Positions 10,407 through 56,470 of a DNA stretch of 64,000 nucleotides are shown piece by piece. Position numbers and translations under genes: made by a program. How positions within the stretch are numbered: position 1 is the stretch's first letter; the number at the start of each line of letters is the position of its first letter. Source of the DNA: Silvibacterium acidisoli (GTDB taxonomy: Bacteria; Acidobacteriota; Terriglobia; Terriglobales; Acidobacteriaceae); NCBI GenBank assembly GCA_022870745.1, contig CP085323.1:4030001-4094000 (forward strand). Direction: 5' to 3'. The notes beneath the pieces are model-generated. The model saw only the letters and a program-made list of their open reading frames with translations. It had not been told where the DNA came from and did no database searches.

Positions 10407-10515
10407 TGCGGGTGCCCCATCCGAGACAATTCCATCGTCTTGGGTGGGAATGCAAACCGCACGCACCACGCGGATTTGCCATCCCGAGCGCTGTGAGGGA
10501 TCCGCACCTTTCTTC
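10407..10515. repeat. Dispersed palindromic element, partial copy (a)
   Basis: Contains GTGCCCCATC and then the left arm ATCCCGAGCG..GAGGGATC of the dispersed palindrome family. The right arm is degenerate. It sits between convergent genes, between the proline dehydrogenase remnant and the intact gene's stop codon. Confidence 0.55.
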
Positions 10516-10528
10516 CGCAATACATGCC

Positions 10529-11455
10529 TCACGGCTTCATCAGATTTTTCAAAATAAAAAGCACGTTCGCCGGGCGCTCGGCGAGCCGCCGCATGAAGTA
10601 GGGATACCACTCCGGCCCGAACGGCACATAGATGCGGACGTTGTAGCCCTCGGCAACCAGTCTCTTGTGTAGATCGCGGCGTACACCGTAGAGCATCTGG
10701 AACTCGAAGCTGTGCGGATCGATCTTTTCGCTCACGACAAATTTCTTGGTCGCCGCCACCATCGCCTCATCGTGCGTCGCGATGCCGTGATAGGTGCCGC
10801 TGGTCAGAAGCATCTGCATCAGCTTGACGAAATTGGCGTCGACAGCTGATTTGTCGGGAAAGGCCACGCTGGCAGGTTCCTTGTAAGCGCCTTTGCACAG
10901 GCGCACCCGCACGCCCTCTGACGTTAGATTGGCAATGTCCTTCTCGCTGCGGTACAGGTACGCCTGGATCACCACGCCCACATGACCTTTGTTCTCCGGT
11001 ATACGGTGCAGTTCACGCACCATTTCCACCGTGGCCTCGGTGTATGGGCTTCCCTCCATGTCCACACGCACGAAACTGCCGGTCTCGACTGCATGCTTCA
11101 CCAGTCCGGCAACGATCTCCTGCGCCACGTTCACCCCAAGGTCCATGCCCATCTGGGTCAGCTTGAGGCTGACGTTGGCCTTCAGGTTACGGCGCGCAAT
11201 CTCGTCCAGCATCTCGTGGTAGACCCGTGCGGAGCGCAGGGCCTCCTGGTGGTTATGGACGTTTTCGCCAAGGGCGTCGAGCGTCGAGGTCATTCCCTGG
11301 TTTTCGAGCAGGGAAGCGCCGTCGAGCACGTCGTCAATGCGCATGCCGGCGATAAATCGTTTGGACATGCGGCGTCCAAGGGTGGATTGTTCAGAAAACT
11401 GCCGGAGTGGCTTGTTCTGCGAAAGTGCCAGGAGAGAAGAACGGAGGATATCCAT
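10529..11455 (-). CDS. Proline dehydrogenase (monofunctional)
   Basis: FAD-dependent oxidation of L-proline to pyrroline-5-carboxylate, a 308-aa TIM barrel typical of stand-alone bacterial PRODH (no P5C dehydrogenase domain). Visible motifs are the NVSLKLTQMG strand, DMEGSPYTEATVE, QAYLYRSEKD, VRLCKGAYKEP and HSFEFQMLYGVRRDL. The conserved end is YVPFGPEWYPYFMRRLAERP, containing the substrate-binding Arg pair (RRLAER). I chose MDILRSSLL as the start; the frame is open 22 codons more but those lack family character. A remnant of a second copy lies just downstream. Confidence 0.95.
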   Translation of the reverse strand: MDILRSSLLALSQNKPLRQFSEQSTLGRRMSKRFIAGMRIDDVLDGASLLENQGMTSTLDALGENVHNHQEALRSARVYHEMLDEIARRNLKANVSLKLTQMGMDLGVNVAQEIVAGLVKHAVETGSFVRVDMEGSPYTEATVEMVRELHRIPENKGHVGVVIQAYLYRSEKDIANLTSEGVRVRLCKGAYKEPASVAFPDKSAVDANFVKLMQMLLTSGTYHGIATHDEAMVAATKKFVVSEKIDPHSFEFQMLYGVRRDLHKRLVAEGYNVRIYVPFGPEWYPYFMRRLAERPANVLFILKNLMKP

Positions 11456-11687
11456 TGCAATAAGGGGCCGATCGTATTCTCGCACATTGCCGCTGGTGGC
11501 AAAGTCACAGGCGGCGGTCACAAATCAATCGATGGTTGGGTGACAAATTTTTGAAATTGCACCAAAATTGGAAAACTTCGGTAATACGCTCGGCATCACA
11601 TGTTGAGTTGGGCAGGCAGGATTCTGACCGACTTGCCTTCTACAGCACCCAAACACGCAACCCAATCGCTTCAACGGAGAAACAACC

Positions 11688-11945
11688 ATGGTCAATCAAT
11701 GCGCGAATCCGAAGTGCGCGAAGCCACTTCACTACCTGCGCGAAGGTCGTATTTTTGTCTTCAACCTGCAGACGCCGGTTATGGACTCTTCTGCTAAAGT
11801 CTCTGACCACCGCCTCAGGCACTATTGGCTGTGCGGAGACTGCTCCCTGCACATGTTCCTCGAGAAGACCACGACTGGAGTACGGCTGGTGAACAAGCCG
11901 AATCCGCATTCGTCCGAGCGGATTGTTGAAGCCCTCGCGTCCTGA
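11688..11945 (+). CDS. Small zinc-ribbon-like protein of unknown function
   Basis: Protein of 85 aa with two cysteine knuckles, CANPKC near residue 5 and CGDC near residue 49, separated by about 40 residues that include FVFNLQTP and HRLRHYWL. The spacing suits a single zinc ribbon. It has its own intrinsic terminator and is flanked by unrelated genes. A nucleic-acid or protein-binding role is plausible, but no function can be assigned. Confidence 0.7.
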   Translation: MVNQCANPKCAKPLHYLREGRIFVFNLQTPVMDSSAKVSDHRLRHYWLCGDCSLHMFLEKTTTGVRLVNKPNPHSSERIVEALAS

Positions 11946-11970
11946 ACCGACCCGAAAGACGCCCCGGAAT

Positions 11971-12000
11971 TAAAAAGCGCCCTCAGTAGGGGCGCTTTTT
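11971..12000 (+). terminator. Rho-independent terminator after the zinc-ribbon gene
   Basis: AAAAAGCGCCC pairs with GGGCGCTTTTT around a short loop, giving a strong hairpin that ends in a T-run, 26 bases after the stop codon. The A/T flanks make it potentially bidirectional. Confidence 0.88.
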
Positions 12001-12095
12001 CAGGCCTTAGGAAACTCTGAAGATGCGTTATTCGTCCTTCACGGAAGTTCGGGCGAAAAAAAATGCCATTCCCCGGCGAACTTCAGCGGCGGAAT

Positions 12096-12136
12096 GTAAA
12101 TTTACCGCATCTACTATGCTTAAAAGGGTTTACCCT
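12096..12136 (+). promoter_or_regulatory. Candidate HU/IHF promoter with two palindromes
   Basis: A possible -10 box TATGCT (12115-12120) lies between two perfect inverted repeats, GTAAATTTAC (12096-12105) and AGGGT-TT-ACCCT (12125-12136). Both contain TTTACC, 28 bases apart. They could be operator half-sites, possibly autoregulatory. No good -35 box is seen. Confidence 0.35.
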
Positions 12137-12168
12137 AGACAACGGATTAGACATCGGAGCAAGATCAC

Positions 12169-12498
12169 ATGACAAAGGCAGAGTTGGTTGAGGAAGTCAC
12201 CCAGCTTGGCGACCTCACAAGGCGCGATGGAGAGGTCATCGTAGATACAATTTTCGATGCCGTGATAGGTGCCCTGAAATCGGGAGATAAAATCGAGATC
12301 CGCGGATTCGGCAGCTTCCGCATCCGTCAGCGCAAGCCCAGGATCGGGCGCAATCCTAAAACGGGAACCAAAGTCGAGGTGCCTGCGAAGCGTGTTCCTT
12401 ACTTTAAGCCCAGCAAGGAATTGCGCGACCTCGTAAATCCTCACGAGGCAGAAAGCGCAGCTGCCCCCGCGACCGAACCAGAAGATCCAACCGCATAA
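12169..12498 (+). CDS. HU/IHF-family DNA-bending protein
   Basis: Nucleoid-associated protein of 109 aa. The whole bacterial histone-like fold is present: MTKAELVEEV, the IEIRGFGSF turn, and the DNA-intercalating arm RPKIG-type sequence, here RKPRIGRNPKTG, then VPYFKPSKELRDLVN. The DKIEIRGFGSFRIRQRK wording is closer to IHF subunits than to HU. An acidic 15-residue Ala/Glu/Pro tail follows the fold. No partner subunit gene is adjacent, so it may act as a homodimer. Confidence 0.93.
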   Translation: MTKAELVEEVTQLGDLTRRDGEVIVDTIFDAVIGALKSGDKIEIRGFGSFRIRQRKPRIGRNPKTGTKVEVPAKRVPYFKPSKELRDLVNPHEAESAAAPATEPEDPTA

Positions 12499-12535
12499 CC
12501 GACCCGCTGGGCTTTCCCGGCCCAGCGATCGTACG

Positions 12536-13342
12536 TTAGTCCCTGCGAATTCCTACGACCGAAAACATCCTTCCGGTAAACCCGTCTTCTCCGCGATACG
12601 AGAAGTAGCGGTCGTTCCGCGTCTTCGTGCATTCGTGGAGCACAGCGATCGAACCGGCGTCCACGCCGCACTCGACCAGCTGCCGCCGGTTGGCCTCCGC
12701 CAGGTCGAGGTGCCGTTCTCCGCTGACCAGATCATCGGCATAAGCAAATCGCTGATGAAACTCAACAAGCACCTCTTCTCCCACCTGGAAGCAGCAGCGC
12801 CCAATGCCCGGACCGACTGCAGCTGAAACATCTGAGGGATCGGTTCCGAACTCCTCCTTCATTTTCCTGAGCCCTGCCTCGACAATTCCTTTAACGGTCC
12901 CCCTCCAGCCTGCATGGAAGGCTCCCACAGCGCGGTTCCTGCGATCCGCGATGAGTACCGGGATGCAGTCCGCCGTCTGGATCGCGAGGAGAACGCCGGA
13001 GTCGCCGGTGACGAGTCCGTCAGCAGCCCGGCTGGCTTCTTCGGAGGCGTCCGATCGGCGAACAGGAACGACATCGGCGGAATGCACCTGTTTCAGCGTG
13101 ACGTAGGGAAAGCCAGCATCACCGGTGATCGCCTGGACAAAGTCACGCCGGTTGGCCAGCACCGTCTCACGCAAGTCAGACGATGTCAGGCCCAGGTTCA
13201 ATTCGCCGGGAGCGGCCGGATCTTTCCGATATACAAGCGAGCGTCCCCCGATGCGGGTGCTGAAGCCATGAACCAGCCAGTCGATCTTTTCAAGGACAGG
13301 GGCGCGGACAACGTCGAGTACGGCAGCGGGAGGAGACTGCAT
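12536..13342 (-). CDS. pgeF: Purine nucleoside phosphorylase / polyphenol-oxidase-like PgeF (YfiH family)
   Basis: Multicopper-laccase-fold protein of the YfiH/PgeF family, whose characterised members process purine nucleosides or edit peptidoglycan precursors. Conserved blocks are LKQVHSADV, ADGLVTGDSGVLLAIQTADC, VGAFHAGWRGTVKGI and GPGIGRCCFQVG, which supply the His/Cys/His metal-site residues. It is 268 aa from the chosen ATG. The frame is open 27 codons further to 13423, but that stretch covers a perfect hairpin and lacks family sequence. The upstream region carries several inverted repeats. Confidence 0.9.
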   Translation of the reverse strand: MQSPPAAVLDVVRAPVLEKIDWLVHGFSTRIGGRSLVYRKDPAAPGELNLGLTSSDLRETVLANRRDFVQAITGDAGFPYVTLKQVHSADVVPVRRSDASEEASRAADGLVTGDSGVLLAIQTADCIPVLIADRRNRAVGAFHAGWRGTVKGIVEAGLRKMKEEFGTDPSDVSAAVGPGIGRCCFQVGEEVLVEFHQRFAYADDLVSGERHLDLAEANRRQLVECGVDAGSIAVLHECTKTRNDRYFSYRGEDGFTGRMFSVVGIRRD

Positions 13343-13721
13343 GATGAGAGATATCTTATGAGATTTGGGTGCAGGCGGAGGAGCGAATGGGCTCACTTTC
13401 CAGTGAGCCCGCTCAAGAGGCATGAGGAAGGGGGCTTGGTCGGATAATTTGAAGAGAGCCCGTCGAAGACAGGCTTCAAATTAGAGAGTTTACTGCTAGA
13501 GAAAAGTTGTTTAGCGCCTGAAGTTGCCTCTAATCTTGCCTAACTAGTAAGCAATCGACTTGCCAAAACTGCTTATCTCTCCGCCATAATCTTTGGATTT
13601 ACGCGTTTTCAATGAGATACAAAACGTTTTAGAGGAAAATCTATTCCATAATGGAATTTTTACCGGGTTTCACTTCAGCGCTCGCGGAGAAATAATGGGA
13701 AAAAGTGGTATTTATATGCCA
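13343..13721. promoter_or_regulatory. Leader region of pgeF with hairpins and palindromes
   Basis: A 379-base gap. It holds a perfect 9-bp stem-loop, GGGCTCACT and AGTGAGCCC around TTCC (13389-13410), and a 9-bp inverted repeat AATTTGAAG/CTTCAAATT (13446-13482). It also holds two short palindromes, AAAACGTTTT (13621-13630) and ATTCCATAATGGAAT (13643-13657), in AT-rich DNA. No gene is visible. The palindromes may be operators; no T-run follows either hairpin. Confidence 0.4.
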
Positions 13722-15146
13722 CTATGTTCCGCTTGCATGCTCAGCGTGAGCAGCTTCCGTCTCGATCAGCTTAATTTTGTTGAGAAGTGCCTTGTAGCTC
13801 ACTCGCAGTCTTCGTGCCGCCTCACGCCGATTCCATTTTGTGGCCACCAGCATTTCCTGGATCGCGTGCCGTTCCGCAGCCCAGGCGGCCTGGCGGCCTA
13901 TCTCGAGCAGTGAGGGCTCTTTCGGAACGATGGGGAACTCTATCGGATCGACAATCGTTTCTGGCTTATCCGCAGCGGCTGCAGGTATCGCATGCAATGC
14001 GAGCTCGCGGATGATCTGCGTAGCGTCAGCGACGATCACGTAGCGTTTGCATAGGTTCTCGAGCTCACGGATGTTTCCCGGCCACGCGTAATTTACCAGC
14101 GCATCCATTGCCTCCCGGGGAAAGTCCGGTACCGGCCGGTCATAGACTCCGGAATACTTATCGATGAAGTGCCGTATCAGGCCGGAAATCTCATTTCGCC
14201 GTTCACGGAGCGGTGGGATGTGAACGGTAACGACATTGATCCGGTAGAAGAGATCTTCCCGGAAGAGCCCTTCGGCCACCCGCTGCTCGAGCAACTTGTT
14301 CGTGGCACAGAGCACGCGAACATCGACTGCGGTGTCCCGCTTGGCACCGAGACGGGCGAACTCGCCGTCCTGCAGGACATGCAGGAGCTTGGCTTGTAGC
14401 GCCGGATGCATCTCCCCGATTTCATCCAGGAACAAGGTTCCGCCATCCGCAAGTTCGAACTTTCCTGGCTTGGAACGTTGTGCTCCGGTGAAAGCGCCAG
14501 CCTCATAGCCGAAGAGCTCGCTTTCAAGCAGATCATTAGGGATTGCCGCGCAATTGACCTTAATAAAGGGCTTATCGCATCTTCCGGACAGGGAGAATAT
14601 GAGCCGTGCGGCGATTTCCTTGCCGACTCCGCTCTCTCCGCGGATCAGTACCGTGGCGCTGGTGGTGGCGACCTTCTCGATGGTGTCGCGAATCTCCCGC
14701 ATGCGCGGCGAGGAGCTGAAGAGGCTTGGGGTGACAACGAGACCGCTGCCCGGCGCAATCACCGGTGTCGCTCCATTTCCCCCAGGAAGTTCATCGAGCA
14801 GCCGGTCCAGCACGGCGGCAACGTCGCCCTGCGCCAGCGGCAACGGCAGAAATGCGGTAGCACCCAGCTTGGCGGCCTCGAAAGCCAGGTGAGTGGCGTC
14901 GACGGCGACCGCGATTACAGGAATGCCCGGGGAGCTTTTGCGCAGCAATCGCAATCCGCTCGGGCGATGGTCAAGCTCCAGCACCACGAGGTCCGGATGG
15001 AGCGCTCGCGCCTTCTCCGCGACGTCTTCGACGCTTGCCTGAAGTTCGGCAACGCCGCCGTGAGCGCGGAAATATCCACGAAGAGTACTGATAGCTTTTT
15101 CGTTCTGCAACGCTATCAGTACCCGATATTGCTTCGACTCGGGCAT
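13722..15146 (-). CDS. Sigma-54-dependent activator with degenerate receiver domain
   Basis: NtrC-type enhancer-binding protein, 474 aa. Residues 1-120 have the receiver fold, but the acidic pair is gone (VLIALQNE) and the phosphoacceptor position holds Glu57 (PDLVVLELD). The AAA+ domain (about 140-375) has Walker A GESGVGKE, the sigma-54 contact loop GAFTGA, Walker B GGTLFLDEIGE and the R-finger region FREDLFYRINV. A Fis-type helix-turn-helix ends the protein (EMLVATKWNRREAARRLRVSYKALLNKI, about 425-460). It should activate sigma-54 promoters without conventional phosphorylation. No partner kinase is adjacent. Confidence 0.92.
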   Translation of the reverse strand: MPESKQYRVLIALQNEKAISTLRGYFRAHGGVAELQASVEDVAEKARALHPDLVVLELDHRPSGLRLLRKSSPGIPVIAVAVDATHLAFEAAKLGATAFLPLPLAQGDVAAVLDRLLDELPGGNGATPVIAPGSGLVVTPSLFSSSPRMREIRDTIEKVATTSATVLIRGESGVGKEIAARLIFSLSGRCDKPFIKVNCAAIPNDLLESELFGYEAGAFTGAQRSKPGKFELADGGTLFLDEIGEMHPALQAKLLHVLQDGEFARLGAKRDTAVDVRVLCATNKLLEQRVAEGLFREDLFYRINVVTVHIPPLRERRNEISGLIRHFIDKYSGVYDRPVPDFPREAMDALVNYAWPGNIRELENLCKRYVIVADATQIIRELALHAIPAAAADKPETIVDPIEFPIVPKEPSLLEIGRQAAWAAERHAIQEMLVATKWNRREAARRLRVSYKALLNKIKLIETEAAHAEHASGT

Positions 15147-15237
15147 GTTTTGTACAAAGTGTAGCTCGAAACGTTATGCGGTGGTCACCGGAAAATTTAT
15201 AAAAAAGTAACGCCCGGGATCGAAGCATATTCGGGGC

Positions 15238-16557: not shown

Positions 16558-16621
16558 AGTGGAGCACCTCGTGAGTTGGCAACCAGTCTAACGGATGCGG
16601 GTGGTTTGCGGCTGGCGAGTC

Positions 16622-16627
16622 GATAAT
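16622..16627 (+). promoter_or_regulatory. Candidate leaderless -10 box before the exported unknown
   Basis: GATAAT six bases before a GTG codon that starts a good signal peptide. The first base departs from TANNNT, so this is a weaker case than the others. Confidence 0.3.
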
Positions 16628-16633
16628 AGGGTT

Positions 16634-17185
16634 GTGGGAAGATTTCTGAATGTTCTGATGAGCGCGGCCATGGCCGTGTGTATGGCCGCAGCGGCGCAAA
16701 CCTCCGCTTCACCGGCTTTGCAATTGAAGCTGGAGCCGGGACCAGAAGTGCGCGGCGTGCCTGCGTCTTTTGTCTACACGATCGTCAATGCCAGCGATCA
16801 CGACGTTCGCCTGCCGAAGCCGGTAGTCAATTGCGGTGACGTCTTCTTCGGAGAGGTCTGGGTCCATGTGAAGTTCAAGCCGCCTGGGCACGCGGTAGTA
16901 CAGGGGCCGGAGCACGGCTGCTCCAACGATTACGTAGCGACCACGACCGCGTTGAAGCGCGCGGAGAGCTGGCCGGTTCTGCATCCGGGCGAATCGATAA
17001 GCCAGACGCTGCCGCAGGCGCAGCTGCACTACGACGCCGGCAAGACGGGCAGCTACGAGGTGTGGGCGGAGTATCGGCCACCGTATTTGTCTCCGCAGGA
17101 GCAACGGGCACTGCGTAAAGCAGGCATCGATTTTCCTGCGGCGGAGATGCGGACGCCGCATGTGAGCTACCGGAGTAAGCCGTAA
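16634..17185 (+). CDS. Exported protein of unknown function
   Basis: Protein of 183 aa from a GTG start that begins a signal peptide (GRFLNVLMSAAMAVCMAAAAQT). The frame is open 13 codons further upstream, but those do not resemble a signal. The mature part looks like a beta-sandwich (LQLKLEPGPEVRG, FVYTIVNASDHDVRLPKP, YEVWAEYRPPY) and contains two Cys residues (NCGDVFF, HGCSNDY) that could form a disulfide. Divergent from the alpha-galactosidase by 76 bases. I do not recognise a family; the layout resembles intracellular-proteinase-inhibitor-like or filamin-like exported domains. Confidence 0.65.
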   Translation: MGRFLNVLMSAAMAVCMAAAAQTSASPALQLKLEPGPEVRGVPASFVYTIVNASDHDVRLPKPVVNCGDVFFGEVWVHVKFKPPGHAVVQGPEHGCSNDYVATTTALKRAESWPVLHPGESISQTLPQAQLHYDAGKTGSYEVWAEYRPPYLSPQEQRALRKAGIDFPAAEMRTPHVSYRSKP

Positions 17186-17197
17186 AAGTTGCTCCCC

Positions 17198-17272
17198 GTC
17201 ATTCCGAACGCAGCGAGGAATCTCGATGCTGAGAGAAGCGTAAGGTGCCGATTCATAGCTGCTCGGAATGAC
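17198..17272. repeat. Dispersed palindromic element (b)
   Basis: Starts GTCATTCCGAACGCAGCGAG, then GAATCTCGATG, and closes with CTCGGAATGAC. The outer arms pair, but the inner right arm (GATTCAT) is degenerate. It lies 12 bases after a stop codon and before the paiB-like start. Confidence 0.8.
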
Positions 17273-17310
17273 AAGCGCGAAGAACGGTGATACCACTGTC
17301 AGGTGAATTC

Positions 17311-19943: not shown

Positions 19944-20019
19944 GTTAATCCGAATGAAGTGAGGAATCTCGATGCTCATGCAGCGCAAAGTGCAGATTCC
20001 TCGCTTCGCTCGGAATGGC
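19944..20019. repeat. Dispersed palindromic element, complete (c)
   Basis: The left arm contains CCGAATGAAGTGAGGAATCT and the right arm AGATTCCTCGCTTCGCTCGG, around a loop of about 20 bases. It lies between convergent genes, 16 bases from the chitinase stop codon. Confidence 0.85.
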
Positions 20020-21484: not shown

Positions 21485-21575
21485 TCCCACCCAAGCAGAG
21501 CTTGGATGGGGCACCCTTTTTGTGGCAGGCAACAATGCGCGGAAAAGCACAGCCCTCACTTCGTTCGGGATGACA
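21485..21575. repeat. Dispersed palindromic element, partial copy (d)
   Basis: A short hairpin CCAAGC-AGA-GCTTGG ending in GGGGCACCC, followed by only the right half of the main palindrome (CCTCACTTCGTTCGGGATGAC). It lies between the chitinase start and the aceE terminator. Confidence 0.6.
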
Positions 21576-25146: not shown

Positions 25147-25227
25147 GTGCCCCGCGTCTTGCTTTCCGAGCAATGCATCTCGAAGAGCCGTATCGCTCCC
25201 ATGTCTCGGAATCGAGACGTGGGGCAC
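25147..25227. repeat. Inverted repeat with GTGCCCC / GGGGCAC arms
   Basis: GTGCCCCGCGTCT and AGACGTGGGGCAC are near-perfect inverted arms about 55 bases apart. Similar GGGGCACC ends occur at elements a and d, so this is probably a companion family of dispersed palindromes. Confidence 0.55.
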
Positions 25228-25251
25228 CCGCGACTGGCAGCCGGTTTATTT

Positions 25252-25312
25252 GTCATTCCGAAGGAAGTGAGGAATCTCGATGCCTCGGAAAGAGCAGGCC
25301 GCAGATTCCTCA
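25252..25312. repeat. Dispersed palindromic element (e)
   Basis: GTCATTCCGAAGGAAGTGAG, then GAATCTCG, a loop, then CAGATTCCTCA. The inner arms are complete; the outer right arm has decayed. It lies 47 bases before a minus-strand stop codon. Confidence 0.75.
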
Positions 25313-38762: not shown

Positions 38763-38840
38763 TGTCATTCCGAAACCAGTGAGGAATCTGCACTTCGCGC
38801 AGTCGATAAAGGCAGATTCCTCGTTTCACCCGGAATAACA
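38763..38840. repeat. Dispersed palindromic element, complete (f)
   Basis: TGTCATTCCGAAACCAGTGA and GAATCTGC form the left arm; GCAGATTCCTCGTTTCACCC and GGAATAAC form the right. It ends two or three bases before the tag stop codon. Confidence 0.85.
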
Positions 38841-43844: not shown

Positions 43845-43853
43845 TCGGAATGA
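43845..43853. repeat. Right-end fragment of the dispersed palindrome (i)
   Basis: A solitary CGGAATGAC, the usual right terminus of the element family, in the gap between the korA-type and dapA-like genes. Too short to be certain. Confidence 0.25.
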
Positions 43854-45055: not shown

Positions 45056-45102
45056 GTCACTCCGAACGCAACGGGGAATCTCGATGCCGCGCCCGGAATG
45101 AC
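45056..45102. repeat. Dispersed palindromic element, deleted copy (g)
   Basis: GTCACTCCGAACGCAACGGG and GAATCTCGATG are joined directly to CCCGGAATGAC. The inner right arm is missing. It ends ten bases before the MCE-protein stop codon. Confidence 0.75.
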
Positions 45103-45112: not shown

Positions 45113-46189
45113 TTAGAAGACCTTAAAGTGAATGGTCAGGTACTTCTTAGGATCCTTGCGGATTGCCGTCACGAGATTGCTCGAGTTCGAGATCATCTCG
45201 TCAGCGTGATTGTAGAGCGACGGATTCTTCACCAGCTGCCCGATCGTTCCTTCGCCGCTGTCAACCTGGTTGAGCACCGAGTTCAGGTGGGTGATGGTGT
45301 CATCCAGCTTGTGCGCGAACTGCGGGTCCTTGACCATCATGCCGAGCGCGCCCTTACCCTGGTTCACATCCGCCAGAAGCTTGTTGAGGCTGTCGGTCGA
45401 CTGTCTGAGATTGTTGTAAAGCGTCTCGTCCTTAAGCAGCTTGCCCGCGCTGCCTTTGCCGGCATCGAGTTCGGCAGAGATGTTCTCAAGGTGGCCCATG
45501 GTGTTGTCGATACGCTTGTAAAGCGTGTCATCGGAGACCAGCTTGCCGATGGAGCCTTTGCCATTCGAGATGTTGTCCACCAGGCCGGAGAGCTGGTTTA
45601 CGGTGGCAACAGCCTTGTTGTAGAGCGTCGGATCGTTGATCAGCTGGCCGATGGAACCCTTGCCGCTGTTCAGCGCATCGACCAGGTTGTCCACCTTGGC
45701 AAGAATCGTATTCAGCTGTTCGATCGTTCCCTGGCTGGACTTGATTACGTCGTTGAGGCTGGGTGTTTCGGTCGTGCCCAACTCGCCGTTGTTCTGGAGC
45801 GGTCCTCCGACGGCTGTTTTGCTGTTGATATTTACAACCGTATCGCCGAGAACTCCGACCGTTTCGAGGCTGGTTTTCGAGTCAGTCTTCAGCGCGTCGC
45901 TGTACTGCTTGCTGAGCTTCATCGTGACCTGAACGGGGGTGAGCTTGCGTTCCGGAATGACCTTGATGCTCTTCACGTTACCGATGGTCACGCCTTCGAG
46001 ATTGACCGGGGCGCCGACCTTCAGGCCGGCTGCGTCTTCGAAGTAAGAGACGGCGGTGAGCTTGCCCTGCCAGAAACCGCCCGTCGTACCAGACATGACA
46101 AAAACGAGCGCGATCAGCACCGAGATTGCCACGATGACCAGAACACCAATTTTTAACTGCGACCACTGAATCTGCTGCTGGCTAGGCAA
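45113..46189 (-). CDS. MCE/MlaD-family protein with five 34-residue repeats
   Basis: Periplasmic lipid-transport protein of 358 aa anchored by one N-terminal helix (LKIGVLVIVAISVLIALVFVM). The MCE domain spans about residues 40-130 (VSYFEDAAGLKVGAPVNLEG, then IGNVKSIKVIP). Residues 175-344 are five tandem repeats of exactly 34 residues, each starting G(K/E)G(S/A/T)(I/A/L)G and continuing .L..D..LYN, which should form a long helical needle or coiled coil. No ATPase (MlaF) or permease (MlaE) gene adjoins. The start appears to be TTG with GAGGGA upstream. Confidence 0.9.
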   Translation of the reverse strand: MPSQQQIQWSQLKIGVLVIVAISVLIALVFVMSGTTGGFWQGKLTAVSYFEDAAGLKVGAPVNLEGVTIGNVKSIKVIPERKLTPVQVTMKLSKQYSDALKTDSKTSLETVGVLGDTVVNINSKTAVGGPLQNNGELGTTETPSLNDVIKSSQGTIEQLNTILAKVDNLVDALNSGKGSIGQLINDPTLYNKAVATVNQLSGLVDNISNGKGSIGKLVSDDTLYKRIDNTMGHLENISAELDAGKGSAGKLLKDETLYNNLRQSTDSLNKLLADVNQGKGALGMMVKDPQFAHKLDDTITHLNSVLNQVDSGEGTIGQLVKNPSLYNHADEMISNSSNLVTAIRKDPKKYLTIHFKVF

Positions 46190-49455: not shown

Positions 49456-49461
49456 TAAGCG

Positions 49462-50454: not shown

Positions 50455-51691
50455 CATTCTGCTGATCGCCAAGCGCGAATATCTCGAACAGGTGCGCGGC
50501 AAGGCCTTCCGCGTGACGACCATCCTGATCCCGACCGTGTTTGCCTGCCTCATCGGCGTGATGACGCTCGCGGCGAAGAACACCGGTGTAGGCAAGCACA
50601 TTGCCGTGGCGTCGAATGATCCCGCATTGGCTAACCGGGTGCGTGACGCCATCGTGGCAGACAAGGACGCGAAGGCGACGGTCGAAGTGGTCGCTCCAGC
50701 GGCCGAAGCGGATCATCAGGCGCTCGTTAGCAAGGTAGACCAGAAGCAGTTGGACGGCTTCCTTTGGCTCGACACAACGGACAGCGGCGCGCCTAAGGCC
50801 ACCTTTGAGTCGCGTTCGTCCGGAGATTTTGCAACCGAAGGCCGCGTGGAGAAGGCGGTGAACCAGGCACTGGTCGAGCAGCGTCTCACCGCCCGCGGTC
50901 TGGCTTCGACCGACGTTGCTTCGCTCACTAAATCCGTCGACGTAAAAACTCTGCAGGTGAAGAACGGCAAGGAATCCGCCAGCAACGCGATGAGCACCTT
51001 CTGGGCGGCGTATGCCATGGCCTTCCTGCTTTCATTCACCGTGGTGATGTACGGCATGAACGTCGGCCGGTCGGTGATCCAGGAGAAGACCTCGCGCATC
51101 TTCGAGGTCATGCTCTCGATGGTTAAGCCGGAAGACATGCTCGCCGGCAAGCTGATCGGCATCGGCGCTGTAGGCCTGACGCAGCTGGCGATCTGGGGAA
51201 TTGCCGGCTCCATCTTCGCCGGCTCGGCCATGGCTGCAAAGCTGATGGCGGGCGGCATCCAGTTCAGCATCGCTCCGATCACGCTGGTGCTCTTCGCTGC
51301 CTACTTCATCCTCGGATACGCGCTCTACAGCACGCTCTTCGCCGGACTGGCCGCGACCTGCGACACCGAGCAGGAGCTGCAGCAGTACGCGCCGCTGGCG
51401 GCCATCCCCATCTGGCTGAGCTTCGGCATGATTGCGTTCATCGTGAGCAGTCCGAACTCGACGATCTCCGTCGCGATCTCGATGTTCCCGCCCTGCGCGC
51501 CGATTACGATGTTCCTGCGCATGGCCTCGCAGTTCCCGCCCATGTGGCAGATCGGGCTTTCGCTCGGCATCATGGCGGTGACGGTGTGGGCGGTGCTGTG
51601 GCTGTCGTCGCGCATCTACCGCGTCGGCATCCTCATGTACGGCAAGCGCGCCACGCTGCCGGAGATGCTGCGCTGGCTTCGGTACAGCTAG
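50447..51691 (+). CDS. ABC-2 type permease (NatB-like)
   Basis: Membrane subunit of 414 aa. The first helix is LIPTVFACLIGVMTLA at about 25-45, followed by a large extracytoplasmic domain (about 45-180). Five or six further helices follow (AAYAMAFLLSFTVVMYGMNV, GAVGLTQLAIWGIAGSIFAG, LVLFAAYFILGYALYSTLFA). VGRSVIQEKTSRIFEVMLSMVKPEDMLAGKLIG is the NatB/YhaP signature of the coupling segment. Its start overlaps the ATPase gene by eight bases, so translation is coupled. Substrate unknown. Confidence 0.92.
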   Translation: MRDILLIAKREYLEQVRGKAFRVTTILIPTVFACLIGVMTLAAKNTGVGKHIAVASNDPALANRVRDAIVADKDAKATVEVVAPAAEADHQALVSKVDQKQLDGFLWLDTTDSGAPKATFESRSSGDFATEGRVEKAVNQALVEQRLTARGLASTDVASLTKSVDVKTLQVKNGKESASNAMSTFWAAYAMAFLLSFTVVMYGMNVGRSVIQEKTSRIFEVMLSMVKPEDMLAGKLIGIGAVGLTQLAIWGIAGSIFAGSAMAAKLMAGGIQFSIAPITLVLFAAYFILGYALYSTLFAGLAATCDTEQELQQYAPLAAIPIWLSFGMIAFIVSSPNSTISVAISMFPPCAPITMFLRMASQFPPMWQIGLSLGIMAVTVWAVLWLSSRIYRVGILMYGKRATLPEMLRWLRYS

Positions 51692-51790
51692 CCCCAACAA
51701 ACGTAAACAGGCAGGTGAGGGCTTTAGCACTCACAATAGAAACGGCGACAGGAGCGGCTTCAGCCGCTGAGGTAATTCTCCACGTCCCGC

Positions 51791-51796
51791 TAGAAT
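51791..51796 (+). promoter_or_regulatory. Candidate leaderless -10 box before the acyltransferase gene
   Basis: TAGAAT six bases (GAATCT) before the GTG start, with no Shine-Dalgarno sequence. Confidence 0.55.
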
Positions 51797-51802
51797 GAAT
51801 CT

Positions 51803-52471
51803 GTGAGCAAGCAACTTTCCTTCGGCCAGCGGATCGCCATCGCCATCGTTCCACGCCTCACCGCGCTGCTGCTGGCAATCATCGGTTCCACCCTCCGCTT
51901 CGAAGTCATCACCGAAGAAGGCGCTGTACCGGAAACGCCGCCGAACACCGGCATTTACTGCTTCTGGCACCGCTGCACGCTCTCCTGCGGGTGGTACTTC
52001 CGCAAGTTCCGCTGCTCCATTCTCATCAGCCAGAGCTTCGACGGCGAACTCATCTCCCGCACGCTCGGCCTGCTCGGCTACAACAGCGTGCGAGGCTCAA
52101 GCTCGCGCGGAGGCGCAGCCGGACTGCTTGCACTGGCCGGCGTTATCGACAATGGCTTTCCCGTCGTGTTCACAGCGGATGGTCCCCGCGGGCCGATCTA
52201 CCAGACAAAGATCGGGCCGGTGAAGCTCTCGCAGATGACCCGCGAACCGATGGGCAGCTTCTATCTGCTGCCCGAGCGCGCCTGGGTGATGAAGTCGTGG
52301 GACCAGTTCATGATCCCGAAGCCTTTCTCGCGCGTGGCCGTGAGCTGGTCGCGCAAGGTCGCACCGCCTGCGGTCGATGCGTCGCCGGAAGAGCTGGAAG
52401 TGAAGCGGCAGGAGCTGAACGACGCCATCGAGCGGGCAAGGCTGCATGCCGAAGCGCATCTCCGGAAATAA
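51803..52471 (+). CDS. DUF374 / lysophospholipid acyltransferase-like protein
   Basis: Protein of 222 aa related to the LPLAT superfamily. An N-terminal membrane helix (IAIVPRLTALLLAIIGSTL) is followed by NTGIYCFWHRCTLSC, which carries His as in the HxxxxD acyltransferase box, and SILISQSFDGELISRTLG. VVFTADGPRGPIYQTKIGPVKLSQ is the phosphate-binding loop. Members are thought to acylate lipid A precursors or other membrane lipids (Kdo2-lipid acylation-type reactions) at the inner membrane. The queA gene starts 21 bases downstream. Confidence 0.88.
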   Translation: MSKQLSFGQRIAIAIVPRLTALLLAIIGSTLRFEVITEEGAVPETPPNTGIYCFWHRCTLSCGWYFRKFRCSILISQSFDGELISRTLGLLGYNSVRGSSSRGGAAGLLALAGVIDNGFPVVFTADGPRGPIYQTKIGPVKLSQMTREPMGSFYLLPERAWVMKSWDQFMIPKPFSRVAVSWSRKVAPPAVDASPEELEVKRQELNDAIERARLHAEAHLRK

Positions 52472-52479
52472 ACGGGAAG

Positions 52480-52485
52480 TAAAAT
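52480..52485 (+). promoter_or_regulatory. Candidate leaderless -10 box of queA
   Basis: TAAAAT seven bases before the GTG start of queA, just past the upstream stop codon. Confidence 0.5.
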
Positions 52486-52492
52486 AGACAGA

Positions 52493-53545
52493 GTGCTTGT
52501 CTCCGACTTCGATTACGAACTCCCTGAAGAACTGATCGCACAACAGCCGCCTGCGGAGCGCTCTGGAGCGCGCATGCTCGCGCTCGACCGCGCGACCGGC
52601 TCTACGAGTGACCGGCATTTCGTGGATTTTCCCAACATGCTGCGCGAAGGCGACCTGCTGGTGCTGAACAATAGCCGCGTCATTCCTGCCCGGCTCTTCG
52701 CGAAGCGAGAAGGCGCACGCGGCAACGCCATGCAGACACCGACGGGCAGCATCGAAGTCTTTCTCACTGGACAAAACACAGAGCATGAGTGGCAGGCGCT
52801 GGTGCGGCCCGGGCGCAAGGTGCATCGCGGCGAGGTGCTGAACTTTGGCGAAGGCCGTTTGCGCGCCGAGGTCATTGCAGAAGGCGAGTTCGGAGAGCGC
52901 ACGCTGCGCTTCCAGCCGGTCGATGATTTCTTCACCGCGCTCGAGGAGCTGGGGCATATTCCACTGCCGCCTTACATTCATCGCGATGATGCGGACACCG
53001 ATCGCGAGCGCTACCAGACGGTCTTCGCGCAGCAGAAAGGTTCTGCGGCTGCTCCAACTGCAGGCCTGCATTTCACCCCGGAGATTCTGGACCGCATTCG
53101 CGCGCGCGGTGTGCAGGTTGCGTACGTCACGCTGCATGTTGGACTCGGAACCTTCCAGCCGGTGCGCGTCGAGCGTGTGGATGAAATCGAGCTGCACTCG
53201 GAGCGCTATACGCTGAGCGCTGAGACGGCTTCTGCGCTCAACAATGCGCGCGCTGAAGGCCGGCGCGTCGTCGCGGCGGGAACGACCACCGTCCGCACCC
53301 TCGAGCACTGCGCCTTGCAGGGCGAGTTCACGCCACATTCGGGCAGCACACGGATCTTCATCTCGCCGGGCTTCGAGTTCAAGGCGGTCAAAGCGCTGCT
53401 GACAAACTTCCACCTGCCGCAATCGACGCTGCTGATGCTGGTGTCAGCATTTGGCGGCAAGGGCCATGTTCTCGACGCCTATCGCCATGCGGTTCGCGAG
53501 CGCTATCGCTTCTTTTCCTACGGCGATTGCATGTTCCTGTCCTGA
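52493..53545 (+). CDS. queA: S-adenosylmethionine:tRNA ribosyltransferase-isomerase
   Basis: Makes epoxyqueuosine in tRNA from preQ1 and SAM (350 aa). Family blocks are [75 protein letters not shown] and [25 protein letters not shown]. The end [16 protein letters not shown] is canonical. GTG start. Other queuosine genes (tgt, queG) are not in the window. polA follows after 33 bases. Confidence 0.97.
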
Positions 53546-53565
53546 GAACGCAGGCTTGTTAGGCG

Positions 53566-53571
53566 TAAACT
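53566..53571 (+). promoter_or_regulatory. Candidate leaderless -10 box of polA
   Basis: TAAACT seven bases (TGAACGG) before the ATG, with no Shine-Dalgarno sequence. Confidence 0.5.
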
Positions 53572-53578
53572 TGAACGG

Positions 53579-56326
53579 ATGCCTACGAAGCCCCCGATTT
53601 TTCTGCTCGACTCGATGTCGTTCGTCTTCCGCGCCTACCATGCGATGCAGCGGCAGCGGCCCATGTCCACGCGTACCGGTGTGCCCACCGCGGCGACCTA
53701 TGTTTTCGTGAACATGATCAACAAGCTGCGGCGGGACTTTCAGCCCGAGTACTTTGCCGCGGTCTTCGACGTGAGTGCGCCGGTCTTCCGCGATGAGCGC
53801 GCCAAGGCCATGACGGCGGTCAAAAAGTTCAACATCAAGACACAGCAGTTCGAAGAGGTCGAGTATGGCGGCTACAAGGCCAATCGCACCGAGATGCCCT
53901 CCGATCTCGCGCAGCAATTGCCATACATCCGCCGCGCGCTCGAGGCCTTTCACATTCCTATCCTGCAGGCCGAAGGATTCGAAGCCGATGACGTGATCGG
54001 CACGCTCTCCACGCTGGCCGCGAAAGATGGACATCCGGTGTACGTCGTCTCGAACGACAAGGACATGCTGCAGCTGGTGAACGAGCATGTGAAGGTTCTG
54101 AACCCGGCGAAGGACAACCTCATCCTCGATCGCGACAAGGTTCTGGAGACGCTGGGCGTGCCGCCGGAGCAGGTGATCGATGTGATGGCGCTGCGTGGCG
54201 ATTCCATCGACAATATCCCAGGAGCGCCCGGCATTGGTGACAAGGGATCGGTCGAACTGATTCAGCAGTTCGGCACCCTCGAAGCCGCGCTCGATCGCGC
54301 CAGCGAGGTCAAGCGCAAGACTTATCGCGAATCGCTCGAGAACAACCGCGACAACATCCTGTTGAGCAGGGAGCTGGTAACGATTCACTGCACCATTCCG
54401 CTTGAGCTCGACCTCGATGCGATGCGCACGCAGCCGCCGGATGCCAATGCCTGCCGGACGCTCTTCACCGAGCTGGAATTCACGACGCTGCTCAAGGAGC
54501 TTGCGCCGTCAGCGGTTGCGCAGGAGGTCGAGTACATCCTCGATCCGGACAAGGAACAACTCGCCGCATTTGTAACCGCGGCCAGGAAGAATGGATTCGC
54601 CGTGGCTGTGCCCGCCTCGGAGCTGGAAGAAGCAGCCGAGCAGGTGAGCGAGCAGGAGACGGAAGCAATTGAAGAGCGCGAGCCGGAGCTGAAGACCATG
54701 TCGATGTTCGGCATGTTCGAGGAGGCCGAGAAGCCGCAGTCGGCTGCTGCTGCTCCGGTTTTTAAGCTCGCTGTAGCACTCGATGGAAAAGCGCTGCGCG
54801 TCGCCCTTGATGATGTGCGAACGCTGCTCGAAGACGAATCCGTTGCCAAGCGCGTGCATGACTTAAAGGGAACAATGCGCGTGCTCGAGCAGCAGGGCGT
54901 GACGCTGCGCGGCGCCAAGGATGACCTGATGCTGTATTCGTACCTGGTCAATCCAACGCACACCACTCATCGATTGAGCGATATCGCGGCGCGCTTCAGC
55001 AATTATCCGTTGAAGGAGACGGGCGAGCGCGAACTGGTCGAAGCAGCACATACCGTCGCGTCGCTAACGGAGACACTTCGCGGCGATGTGAAGACGCTCG
55101 ATGCCGAGAGCATCTACAACGATATCGATCTGCCGTTGGCTCCGGTGCTGCTGCGTATGGAAAAAGTAGGCGTGCGCATCGATTCCGCGCAGTTGAATCG
55201 GATGTCGGAGACGCTGGGCACGGAGATGCAGCGCGTCGGCGAGGAGATATTTTCGCTCTCCGGCCACCGCTTTAACATTCAGTCGCCCAAGCAGCTCGGC
55301 GATGTGCTCTTCAACAAGATGAATCTGCCCAAGCCGATTAAGTACGGCAAGGGCAAGGTGGTTTCGACCGCACAGGATGTGCTTGAGGAACTGGCCGAGC
55401 ACAATGATGTTCCGAAGCTGGTACTCGAGTATCGCCAGCTTGCGAAGCTGAAGTCGAACTATGTCGATTCGCTGCCGCTGCTGGCCGACAGCGATGGCCG
55501 CGTGCATACGACTTTCAATCAAGTCGGCACGGCGACGGGCCGATTGTCGTCGACGAATCCGAACCTGCAGAACATTCCTGTGCGCACCGAGCTTGGCCGT
55601 GAGATACGCGCGGCGTTCATTGCTGCTCCGGGGCACAGGCTGCTTTCTGCGGATTATTCGCAGATCGAACTGCGTCTGATGGCGCATTTCTCTGAAGATC
55701 CGCTGCTGCTTAAGGCTTATCGCACCGGCGAAGACATTCACACGCTTACGGCATCGGAAGTCTTCGGCGTGCCGGCGGACAAGATGGACAAGGTCACGCG
55801 CAATCGCGCCAAGGCTGTGAACTTCGGCATCGTCTATGGCATCTCGCCTTTCGGTCTTGCGGCACAACTTGGTATCGATCAGAAGGAAGCGAAGACGTAC
55901 ATCGAGCGTTACTTCGAGCGCTACCACGGCGTACGCGAGTTCATCGATCGCACGCTCGAAGAAACGCGCCGCGACCAGAAGGTGCGCACGGTCTTCGGAC
56001 GCGTTCGTCCCATCCCTGACATCCAGAGCCGCAACGCCAACCTGCGCGGCTTTGCCGAGCGGACAGCGGTTAACACACCGCTGCAGGGAACAGCAGCCGA
56101 CCTGATCAAGCTGGCGATGATTCGCATCGATCGCCGCCTCGCGGATGAAAAGCTGCGCACCCGCATGACGCTGCAGGTGCACGATGAACTGCTCTTCGAT
56201 GTGCCGGAGGATGAAGCCGAGAAAGCCGAAAAGCTTGTGAAACACGAGATGGAGTCGGTGATTGAGCTGAAGGTCCCGTTGGTGGCCGACGTGGGCATTG
56301 GCGGCAACTGGCGCGACATCAAATAG
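53579..56326 (+). CDS. polA: DNA polymerase I, proofreading domain degenerate
   Basis: Gap-filling and Okazaki-fragment polymerase of 915 aa. The 5'-3' exonuclease (residues 1 to about 290) is intact: FVFRAYHAM, EADDVIGTLS, VSNDKDMLQLV, GDSIDNIPGAPGIGDKG. The middle region lacks the DxE of exonuclease motif I and the Asp of motif II (VHDLKGTMRVL where E. coli has NLKYD), so 3'-5' proofreading is probably lost, as in Taq. The polymerase motifs are intact: LLSADYSQIELRLMAHF (A), RNRAKAVNFGIVYG (B) and LQVHDELLFDVP (C). An acidic linker (about 345-385) is rich in Glu. Confidence 0.97.
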   Translation: MPTKPPIFLLDSMSFVFRAYHAMQRQRPMSTRTGVPTAATYVFVNMINKLRRDFQPEYFAAVFDVSAPVFRDERAKAMTAVKKFNIKTQQFEEVEYGGYKANRTEMPSDLAQQLPYIRRALEAFHIPILQAEGFEADDVIGTLSTLAAKDGHPVYVVSNDKDMLQLVNEHVKVLNPAKDNLILDRDKVLETLGVPPEQVIDVMALRGDSIDNIPGAPGIGDKGSVELIQQFGTLEAALDRASEVKRKTYRESLENNRDNILLSRELVTIHCTIPLELDLDAMRTQPPDANACRTLFTELEFTTLLKELAPSAVAQEVEYILDPDKEQLAAFVTAARKNGFAVAVPASELEEAAEQVSEQETEAIEEREPELKTMSMFGMFEEAEKPQSAAAAPVFKLAVALDGKALRVALDDVRTLLEDESVAKRVHDLKGTMRVLEQQGVTLRGAKDDLMLYSYLVNPTHTTHRLSDIAARFSNYPLKETGERELVEAAHTVASLTETLRGDVKTLDAESIYNDIDLPLAPVLLRMEKVGVRIDSAQLNRMSETLGTEMQRVGEEIFSLSGHRFNIQSPKQLGDVLFNKMNLPKPIKYGKGKVVSTAQDVLEELAEHNDVPKLVLEYRQLAKLKSNYVDSLPLLADSDGRVHTTFNQVGTATGRLSSTNPNLQNIPVRTELGREIRAAFIAAPGHRLLSADYSQIELRLMAHFSEDPLLLKAYRTGEDIHTLTASEVFGVPADKMDKVTRNRAKAVNFGIVYGISPFGLAAQLGIDQKEAKTYIERYFERYHGVREFIDRTLEETRRDQKVRTVFGRVRPIPDIQSRNANLRGFAERTAVNTPLQGTAADLIKLAMIRIDRRLADEKLRTRMTLQVHDELLFDVPEDEAEKAEKLVKHEMESVIELKVPLVADVGIGGNWRDIK

Positions 56327-56366
56327 CTGGTTCGTGTCTTCAGAAACCGCTAGCGCTATCTGAAAT

Positions 56367-56470
56367 TCTCATCCTGAAAGCAGTGAGGGATCTGCATTTT
56401 TCTTTCGACAGGCGGTATTCCCGGTGTCGAACGCGTAAATACAGATCCCTCGTTTTGCTCGGGACGAGAA
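56367..56470. repeat. Dispersed palindromic element, long-loop copy (h)
   Basis: CTCATCCTGAAAGCAGTGAG and GGATCTGCA form the left arm; CAGATCCCTCGTTTTGCTCG and GGACGAG the right, around a loop of about 45 bases. It lies between the convergent polA and glmM genes, nine bases from the glmM stop. Confidence 0.75.

Follow-up and report, generated by a model that had tools for sequence, protein, structure and literature searches.

A REP-like hairpin repeat with a tandem GA/GA mismatch, located mainly downstream of genes in Silvibacterium acidisoli

Introduction

CGTC-tagged REPs feature, according to the text of Di Nocera, De Gregorio, Rocco 2013 (PMC3733652), an unpaired CGTC, TGTC or CCTC tag, stems of 8-9 bp that begin with AT, loops of 4-5 nt and a short unpaired tail that is mostly CCA; which enzyme moves repeats of this class is stated there as an open question. 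The GTAG REPs and REPINs of E. coli and Pseudomonas, associated with RAYT, are described in PMC3116915 and PMC8266576 as extragenic inverted doublets with the tag placed 5' of a hairpin. The irregular stem of the E. coli REPs has mismatches that are required by TnpA-REP, according to PMC8266576. PMC6006769 covers the repeats of atypical TnpA class 3 in Acidobacteria and Planctomycetes, which have the foot CnGA and flank transposase genes, and IS200/IS605 end hairpins, which carry a guide tetranucleotide at the hairpin foot.

The repeat of S. acidisoli studied here shares with the CGTC-tagged REPs, as the text of PMC3733652 portrays them, the CGTC or TGTC tag, the AT start of the stem, predominant head-to-head dimers with rare tail-to-tail and common heterodimeric ones, a location in convergent and co-directional gaps and the lack of an attached transposase gene. 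It differs from them by a stem of 5 bp, a tandem GA/GA and 2 bp closed by a 3-nt loop, and by the tail CTGC instead of CCA, a separation drawn from the text description rather than the sequences in Figure 2 of that paper, with which overlap is possible. The extragenic inverted doublets with a 5' tag recall the GTAG REPs, and the irregular stem those of E. coli, but the tag is TTGTC rather than GTAG or GTGG and no Y1 gene was found bracketed by the unit. TnpA class 3 and TIRYT repeats are REP-like families of the same phylum that flank transposase genes, which the studied unit does not. The likeness to IS200/IS605 ends lies in the guide tetranucleotide at the hairpin foot; no Y1 gene was found between units. 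A description of the GA/GA hairpin was not found in the literature covered, which was mostly non-subscription and excluded the figures of PMC3733652. The repeat resembles known CGTC/TGTC-tagged REPs, with a mismatch-bearing hairpin that appears to be new.

The repeat unit

The original prediction of a dispersed family is borne out, and the unit of this family is the single arm rather than the whole palindrome. The pattern GTCATTCCGAN7GAGGAATCT, with up to 3 mismatches, occurs at 94 places in the genome versus 0 for the reversed control. A covariance model derived from the matches of this pattern (78 of the 79 distinct 26-mers were aligned, the odd one at 115940 being omitted) detects 123 or more units, spread over 90 sites of the 5.36-Mb S. 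acidisoli genome, the number being a lower bound because 150 candidates were scored per genome. The window, which is the whole 64-kb stretch of DNA analysed, holds 11 units at 8 sites at E < 0.01.

The 26-nt arm is self-folding, with a (C/T)GTC tag, a 5-bp stem, a conserved tandem GA/GA mismatch, a 2-bp inner stem and often a GNA loop. The genome consensus of the hairpin, about 34 nt long, is TTGTC - ATYCC - GA - 2 bp - GNA - 2 bp - GA - GGRAY - CTGCAYTT. The motif table was built on the 97 of 123 units that score at least 30 bits; T is found at position -1 in 92 of these 97, followed by GTC, and the tail of the genome's own units reads CT, then GC. Head-to-head dimers prevail over tail-to-tail ones, the 90 sites being divided into 27 '+-', 1 '-+', 2 '++', 1 cluster of four and 59 with just one recognised unit. 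Dimers have sharp ends, TTGTC..GACAA. Single units display no strand bias relative to the chromosome halves (20/13 and 13/13, the origin being assumed at base 1), nor, in a count by eye of co-directional gaps, between sense (13) and antisense (14). Rfam at its gathering threshold returned one tRNA only, the repeat matching no known RNA family.

Three of the window sites are head-to-head dimers, composed of units 19944..19969 (+ strand, 34.3 bits in the covariance model) and 19994..20019 (- strand, 41.3 bits), 38764..38789 (+, 36.4 bits) and 38814..38839 (-, 35.0 bits), and 56368..56393 (+, 24.6 bits) and 56443..56468 (-, 20.4 bits). Unit 17198..17223 (+, 42.9 bits) may have an opposite decayed partner at 17249-17272, for which the model E is just 2.3. 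The right partner of unit 25252..25277 (+, 40.1 bits) has decayed beyond detection by the model and was recognised by eye, as was the truncated right end that follows unit 45056..45081 (+, 31.8 bits). Two further units are single and decayed: 10478..10503 (+, 28.2 bits, E 3.9e-05), where a DUF3106 gene and a proline dehydrogenase gene converge, and 21551..21574 (-, 24.4 bits, E 4.2e-04). Of the positions first listed as copies, those at 10407 and 21485 correspond to repeats of family C (10410..10448 and 21486..21516, positions checked), distinct from the studied unit, the true units being those at 10478 and 21551. The copy listed at 43845 is a short end fragment only, which the model misses at E <= 10.

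Location relative to genes

Gene calls from a codon-score script, not a curated annotation, place 42 of the 86 classified sites in convergent, 37 in co-directional and 7 in divergent gaps; the other sites of the 90 are one inside a frame and three unclassified. The location downstream of genes noticed in the window is confirmed by the 79 of 86 classified sites in convergent or co-directional gaps. The companion claim that copies never lie between divergent genes fails genome-wide at the 7 divergent sites, divergent gaps being avoided with P 4e-8 by gap length and 0.04 by gap count. The orientation at 17198 hinges on ORF 16595-17185, which has no Pfam match. With these gene calls the earlier count of five window sites no more than 20 nt from a minus-strand stop codon drops to three (16, 3 and 11 nt), with two further sites at 25 and 31 nt. 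The stop codon of a GH18 gene (script gene call) is 16 nt away from unit 19994..20019, that of an adenine glycosylase gene 3 nt away from unit 38814..38839. Function, rather than tolerance of insertions, could be an alternative source of this gene-end bias.

Fold and covariation

The complete copies do fold into the long hairpins originally described: the three window dimers reach -30.3, -39.9 and -48.8 kcal/mol as RNA, and for each of them 0 of 200 shuffles attains as low an energy. The long palindrome is also the most stable fold that energy models predict for the dimer. With DNA parameters an arm taken by itself is no more stable than its shuffles (z -0.02 to -0.66), and with RNA parameters it is hardly more so (z -1.08, -0.70); the energy models may leave GA pairs uncredited.

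Compensating changes, taken earlier as a sign of selected pairing, are real within a single arm and do not extend to pairing between arms. For the 23 of 27 '+-' sites with spacing below 90 nt and both units above 20 bits, within-arm pairing amounts to 123/138, to be compared with a mean of 102.8 and a maximum of 111 in 2000 shuffles, while between-arm pairing is 104/138 versus 104.5 expected from random re-partnering. The long palindrome was consequently rejected as the selected structure. Within-arm covariation is in part the signature of few inherited subtypes (AC-GT, GC-GC, GT-AC, CC-GG), and two of five covariation measures are not above shuffles (both-side changes 129/500, further pair types 142/500).

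The conservation of GA/GA and GNA was assessed only on an unconstrained set, because the cross-phylum pattern prescribed both. When no constraint was put on the 11 middle bases, 501 places were found in 8 genomes; among the 150 of these that were listed, which stem from three of the eight genomes, GA/GA is present in 129, Watson-Crick pairing replaces both GA positions in 1, pair 11-17 forms in 134 (shuffle mean 58.3, maximum 78) and a GNA loop in 98, pair 12-16 being close to the shuffle mean. Both inner pairs are Watson-Crick in 119 of 138 cross-phylum units. GNA is not universal, Hymenobacter having also AGC and CCC loops.

These data bear on the proposal that the dimer acts at the 3' ends of mRNAs, selection keeping its long palindrome as a terminator or as a barrier to decay between convergent genes. 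The proportion of sites in convergent gaps and the stable RNA folds of the window dimers are in its favour, as are the terminator-like hairpins seen by eye that some congeners have instead in the gap of site 56368. The proposal does not pass the re-partnering test, arms pairing no better with their own partner than with random ones, and it leaves aside the 59 of 90 sites with a single recognised unit and the congeners that manage without the repeat. The conserved TT before the unit leads to AA after the right arm of the dimer, the reverse of a U-tract; an intrinsic terminator was rejected because this AA stands where a T-run would follow the hairpin. A selected mRNA 3'-end structure is thus considered unlikely.

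Congeners and recent multiplication

The genome of S. acidisoli carries 109 units in the comparison with eight congeners, which have 50, 2, 2, 4, 2, 7, 7 and 2. At site 56368 the unit is absent from the orthologous gap in seven congeners; the alignment omitted congener G451, which was searched separately with the covariance model. Two window sites were compared, and at both the congeners are without the copies; no insertion positions are common to this genome and to the congener with 50 units. Congeners carry other subfamilies, with a C8-G20 to T8-A20 change. Of 27 units of congener G450, 24 have C at -1, and the tail in G450 is CT followed mostly by CAGCGN or CGGCGN; six units of G448, G449 and G451 have GCGGTT or GTGGTT after CT. 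Recent and repeated multiplication of the repeat follows from the congeners having 2-50 units, lacking the copies at the two sites compared and differing in repeat sequence. The increase in copy number took place in the lineage of this species, and the copies that persist lie mainly downstream of genes. Copy numbers, empty orthologous gaps and sharp ends all support the initial suggestion of a REP-like, mobile element.

Spread across phyla

Judged by record titles, a near-identical 26-mer is shared by more than a dozen bacterial phyla, most of which rest on metagenome bins, where binning errors occur. The 50 genomes counted have between 1 and 841 copies. T is found at -1 in 111 and C in 20 of the 138 cross-phylum units. 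The distribution is patchy within one phylum, the exact ATTCC form being found in 13 of 396 genomes. A 32-nt query had no match at E <= 0.05 among PLSDB plasmids and INPHARED phages. IMG/VR holds 43 matching stretches, some of which may be host DNA.

Near-identity of the sequence in many phyla is what a binding site for a host protein (of gyrase, IHF or nucleoid type) would produce, with a chromosomal role as suggested for E. coli REPs. Such a site is improbable given the patchy distribution in the phylum, the range from 2 to 109 units within the genus, the positions that differ from those of the congener with 50 units and the variation of stem and tail between species.

Search for a mobilising enzyme

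The S. acidisoli genome has three Y1 transposase genes, flanked by repeats other than the studied unit; a family-C-like motif flanks two of them (by eye). Families B and C at these genes may be of the TnpA class 3/TIRYT kind. Of the Y1 loci inspected, 3 in this genome, 9 in congeners and 90 foreign, none is bracketed by the unit. Five of the 90 foreign loci carry 6 units in total, on one side only (E < 0.01), versus 5.5 expected from copy density; these 90 loci hold about 91 of 149 listed Y1 matches, and some flanks end at contig ends. A strict motif, which sees 54 of 97 good own units, had found 2 such foreign loci, compared to 5 with the covariance model. Linkage to a Y1 transposase was rejected on these grounds, and the mobilisation by TnpA-REP suggested at the outset is not upheld.

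The genome's Y1 transposases (RAYT/TIRYT-like), which have families B and C as their own repeats, might still act on the unit in trans. Three such genes are present, a Y1 match exists in 38 of 50 repeat-bearing genomes, and the text of Di Nocera 2013 (PMC3733652) considers a broad range of transposases as possible movers. Mobilisation by these enzymes is nonetheless doubtful: besides the lack of bracketed loci and the chance level of one-sided units, 12 of the 50 carriers have no Y1 match at copy numbers of 1 to 152, including the isolate Hymenobacter glacieicola with 105 copies.

The alternative of a MITE of a classical DDE transposon accounts for short, dispersed repeats with inverted ends. 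The 23 dimers provided no convincing target-site duplication in 21 length/offset combinations (smallest P 0.034), single units are common, and no neighbour gene family recurs at more than 3 loci among 1730 stop-free frames within 2 kb at 80 of 119 foreign loci. One of the groups of this size consists of translations of the repeat itself. A DDE MITE was therefore rejected and is highly improbable. Elements of the IS200/IS605 type are not known to produce target-site duplications.

Proposed origin and significance

It is likely that the units are REP-type non-autonomous mobile repeats of the orphan CGTC/TGTC-tagged class, in a variant with a tandem GA/GA core, which would be moved in trans. The structure suggests that the unit would be recognised as a folded single strand, with the TGTC/CGTC tag as a guide adjoining the foot of the hairpin and the GA/GA step making the stem irregular, by analogy with the bulge of E. 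coli REPs. A putative trans-acting single-strand nuclease, HUH-like or a conserved host enzyme and presumably not encoded beside the unit, would copy the dimer to new sites. Insertions in promoters and genes would be lost, so that the survivors lie at gene ends; an effect at the mRNA 3' end would then be a by-product. A more tentative possibility is that one hairpin (YGTC - 5 bp - GA/GA - 2 bp - GNA) is a single, widely distributed selfish element crossing phyla, which multiplies in its new hosts without Y1 via another nuclease or a conserved host enzyme reading the GA-stacked single strand.

The result provides a sharp, searchable structural signature. Nearly the same hairpin is found in many phyla, some carrier genomes combining about 100 or more copies with the absence of any detectable Y1 gene, and the comparison of copy-rich with copy-poor congeners (109 and 50 versus 2) offers a direct route toward the enzyme.

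Repeat unit and copy number

The one-arm pattern GTCATTCCGAN7GAGGAATCT, with up to 3 mismatches, is found at 94 places of the single-contig 5.36-Mb Silvibacterium acidisoli genome, and its reversed control at none. The dispersed family of the original prediction is thus confirmed. Its unit is not: many places are lone arms without a clear partner, showing that the repeat unit is the arm rather than the long palindrome, which is a head-to-head pair of arms. The genome-wide covariance search proposed there was carried out with a model built from 78 sequences of the 26-nt arm (7 pairs). It yields at least 123 units (E <= 1) at 90 sites, arranged as 27 head-to-head pairs ('+-', dimers), 1 '-+' pair, 2 '++' pairs, one cluster of four and 59 single units. 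Repeat density peaks in the window, where 11 units lie at 8 sites; no other 64-kb stretch is denser. When the sites were placed uniformly 2000 times, the maximum per 64 kb reached 7 at the 99th percentile and never exceeded 9.

Fold of the arm

The information content of the 97 units scoring 30 bits or more has sharp edges and near-random flanks, with the succession TT, GTC, ATYCC, GA, RY, GNA, RY, GA, GGRAY, CT, GC and AYTT, a profile indicating that the arm folds alone. The fold comprises a stem of positions 4-8 with 20-24, a mismatch in which GA (9-10) faces GA (18-19), inner pairs 11-17 and 12-16, and a 3-nt loop. Among 78 distinct arms, both-side changes fill 45 cells versus 17.1 in shuffles (0/500 as high), a signal lost when the partner is slid by 1 to 3 columns; two of five covariation measures are not above shuffles (129/500 and 142/500). 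With DNA parameters, which may not credit GA pairs, the lone arm does not surpass shuffles in stability. Units 82848, 1946277 and 3876792 carry TC in place of GA at 9-10; the first has an uninterrupted 9-bp stem and an AAA loop, resembling the stem length given for some families of CGTC repeats, and the other two have A-C at the stem foot.

Selection for pairing between arms, also predicted originally, is not borne out. In the 23 of 27 dimers with clear units, three variable pairs within arms form in 123/138 cases (mean 102.8 and maximum 111 in 2000 shuffles), whereas six variable between-arm positions are paired in 104/138, at chance when compared to 104.5 for randomly re-partnered arms (P 0.61). 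Between-arm pairing across all 26 columns gives P 0.24 in the same dimers, and subtypes combine freely within dimers. Energy models favour the long hairpin, with -30.3, -39.9 and -48.8 kcal/mol as RNA (three window dimers) and -18.8 to -41.5 with DNA parameters (four dimers). The long hairpin can form, yet no trace of selection on it was found, while the small hairpin shows one.

The core was assessed without bias by the exact motif GTCATTCC-N11-GGAATC, in which all 11 middle bases are free. Eight genomes contain it at 501 places, against 0 for the reversed control, and 150 of these places were used: 20/20 from this genome, 86/86 from Hymenobacter and 44/154 from a Chloroflexaceae genome. GA faces GA in 129 of the 150, and a single row has ordinary pairs at both of these positions. 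Pair 11-17 is formed in 134, compared with a mean of 58.3 and a maximum of 78 in shuffles; pair 12-16, formed in 131, is near its shuffle mean of 126.5 and hence uninformative. The 20 own rows alone have GA/GA in 14 and GNA in 13, with neither inner pair above its largest shuffle. The GNA loop, found in 98/150, is preferred and not required because Hymenobacter loops also include AGC and CCC. In the available text of two papers, a sheared G-A pair is described to close GNA loops in DNA, and GCGAAGC and GNA minihairpins as extraordinarily stable (PMC6479982, PMC11101458). E. coli REPs likewise feature two conserved stem mismatches, which the accessible part of the source reports to be needed by their transposase TnpA-REP (PMC8266576). 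This likeness to the conserved GA/GA core suggests that the unit may be recognised as a single strand. The foreign genomes G407 and G439 have further loop types (GAGCCTGCCGAG, GAGCTTGTCGAG) and further stems (ATTCT/AGAAT, ATCCT/AGGAT) alongside the unit in one genome.

Position relative to genes

A crude codon-score gene caller places 42 of the 90 sites in convergent, 37 in co-directional and 7 in divergent gaps; 1 lies in a frame and 3 are unclassified. Control gaps of at least 20 nt, from 184 kb of sequence including the window, are 16 convergent (13,816 bp), 44 co-directional (11,524 bp) and 15 divergent (12,846 bp). Convergent gaps are favoured, with P 0.018 by length and 3e-4 by count, and divergent gaps are avoided (P 4e-8 and 0.04, respectively). 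Placement at gene ends therefore holds as a preference for convergent gaps, but the seven divergent sites contradict the claim that copies never separate divergent starts. Single units have no sense/antisense preference in our own count.

The window also harbours three paralogous frames next to one another (539-550 aa; 78-1730, 1780-3399 and 4380-6029), which share long blocks at 66-76% DNA identity, and a repeat (45210-45664) inside gene 45113-46189, spaced by 102 or 204 nt in four of five listed 47-nt copies. A phosphomannomutase-like protein encoded in the window points to a probable acidobacterial host: its identity is 51-71% with eight of the nine acidobacterial bins compared, 45% with the remaining one, and at most 43% with seven genomes from other phyla.

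Comparison with congeners

Eight congeners, five with assemblies less than 90% complete, have 50, 2, 2, 4, 2, 7, 7 and 2 units versus 109 here (E <= 0.01). Orthologous gaps were compared at two window positions, 56368 and 10478. In the gap of 56368 the dimer is absent from the alignment in G139, G450, G452, G449, G446 and G448, and the covariance model detects no unit in these six or in G451, whose gap is longer; some congeners have terminator-like hairpins there instead (by eye). At 10478, ~22 nt (G452) and ~13 nt (G446) separate aligned blocks versus ~232 here, the gap of G449 is longer and unrelated, and all three lack a unit there.

Thirty-eight loci around congener model hits (31 of G450, 7 of four others) were compared with the own sites. 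Fourteen site-locus pairs share a flank; both flanks are common to one, but there the unit has another location. By our own reading of the coordinates, a unit adjoins the same gene on one side at own sites 82790 and 3737519 (with locus L384) and 371447 (with L398). In L384, from G450, one unit is flanked by two genes whose relatives in this genome lie megabases from each other, both next to a unit (82790, 3737519), and window sites 38764 and 45056 sit between blocks matching separate places of G139. REP-associated rearrangement is possible in both cases.

The own subfamily reads TTGTC-ATYCC..GGRAY-CT-GC. That of G450 is CGTC-ATTCT..AGAAT-CT-CAGCGA (C before GTC in 24/27 units, ATTCT/AGAAT in 18/27), and that of G448, G449 and G451 is TGTC-ATCCT or ATTCT..-CT-GCGGTT or GTGGTT (6 units). 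The strict motif scan used saw units in 24/31 G450 loci and 6/7 other loci, and none at the G139 locus. The change of C8-G20 to T8-A20 between subfamilies is compensatory within the stem. Such species-specific subfamilies argue that the repeats of these lineages came from different sources. At the ends of dimers no convincing target-site duplication is seen.

Spread across phyla

Exact GTCATYCCGANNGNANNGAGGRATCT (40 bits, equal base use) is expected ~0.5 times by chance in both strands of 257 Gb and was found in at least 119 stretches. The matches listed include, by title, Acidobacteria, Chloroflexota, Bacteroidota, Chlorobiaceae, alpha, beta, gamma and delta Proteobacteria, Phycisphaerae, Nitrospirota, Verrucomicrobia, Kiritimatiellae, Cyanobacteria, Armatimonadota, Gemmatimonadetes, Oligoflexales, Rokuibacteriota, a Ruminococcus, a Clostridia bin, an Eggerthellaceae bin, a Daviesbacteria, FCPU426 and two archaeal bins. 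Many carriers are bins, and contamination may explain single cases; those listed that are isolates by title are Proteobacteria, Bacteroidota and Cyanobacteria. The inner positions left free by the motif pair in the 138 units of the 119 loci: Watson-Crick pairs are found at 11-17 in 124, compared with a mean of 68.3 and a maximum of 82 in shuffles, at 12-16 in 132 (110.9 and 120) and at both in 119. Fifty of these genomes have 1 to 841 copies (2 mismatches; reversed controls all 0). Distribution within the phylum of the window is patchy, with the exact ATTCC form in 13/396 genomes. This cross-phylum near-identity is unusual, since REP motifs of different taxa are relatively low in similarity according to the accessible text of a 2025 survey (PMC12306157). 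The exact motif also occurs in 43 IMG/VR viral-contig stretches (L340-L382), some with 2-3 copies, from virus or mislabelled host DNA.

Candidate mobilising enzymes

The own genome has three Y1_Tnp genes (TnpA-REP/RAYT-like transposases), flanked by two other repeat families (by eye), and no unit is near any of them or at nine congener Y1 loci. Ninety foreign Y1 loci hold 6 units (E < 0.01) versus 5.5 expected from copy density, in L227, L234, L274, L278 and L292, in each locus on one side of the Y1 gene only. A search for a linked TnpA-REP gene, as the original prediction advised, thus gave no association. Y1 matches, 149 in total, are present in 38 of 50 carriers; the 12 without a match at E <= 0.001 have 89, 13, 1, 52, 24, 29, 126, 10, 12, 152, 47 and 105 copies. 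Two of these are isolates, Hymenobacter glacieicola (105 copies) and Altibacter lentus (10), both drafts, and the remaining ten carry titles of bins. Among 80 loci no neighbouring gene family recurs in more than three.

Family C (GGGTGCCCCATCC..GGATGGG type) is a second REP-like family, found in the same gaps as units (window 10410-10448, 21486-21516 and 25198-25229). By eye, a similar motif forms imperfect inverted repeats on both sides of two own Y1 genes (L032, L033). The remaining own Y1 gene is bracketed by a third family, B (TTGTATCAGGGCACGGC..GCCGTGCC; by eye), which was noted across L031, L006, L013 and L165. Family-B-like motifs adjoin GTCATTCC units, and TTGTATCAGGGCACGGC lies beside a unit in L165, from an Acidobacteriaceae bin (both by eye).

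Relation to REP sequences

The nearest kin of the repeat is the CGTC class, as described in the available text of Di Nocera 2013 (PMC3733652). The repeat lacks two features given there, an uninterrupted 8-9 bp stem and a CCA tail, and is therefore regarded here as a variant near this class, not as a member of one of its four families. The Y1 results above agree with the same text, which states that no transposase gene of CGTC-bearing species is flanked by CGTC units, and proposes that lost or broad-range enzymes move them. In the favoured mechanism, an enzyme acting in trans would recognise the folded single strand of the unit. The repeat works like a REP or REPIN, with a tagged hairpin, inverted doublets and survivors at gene ends.
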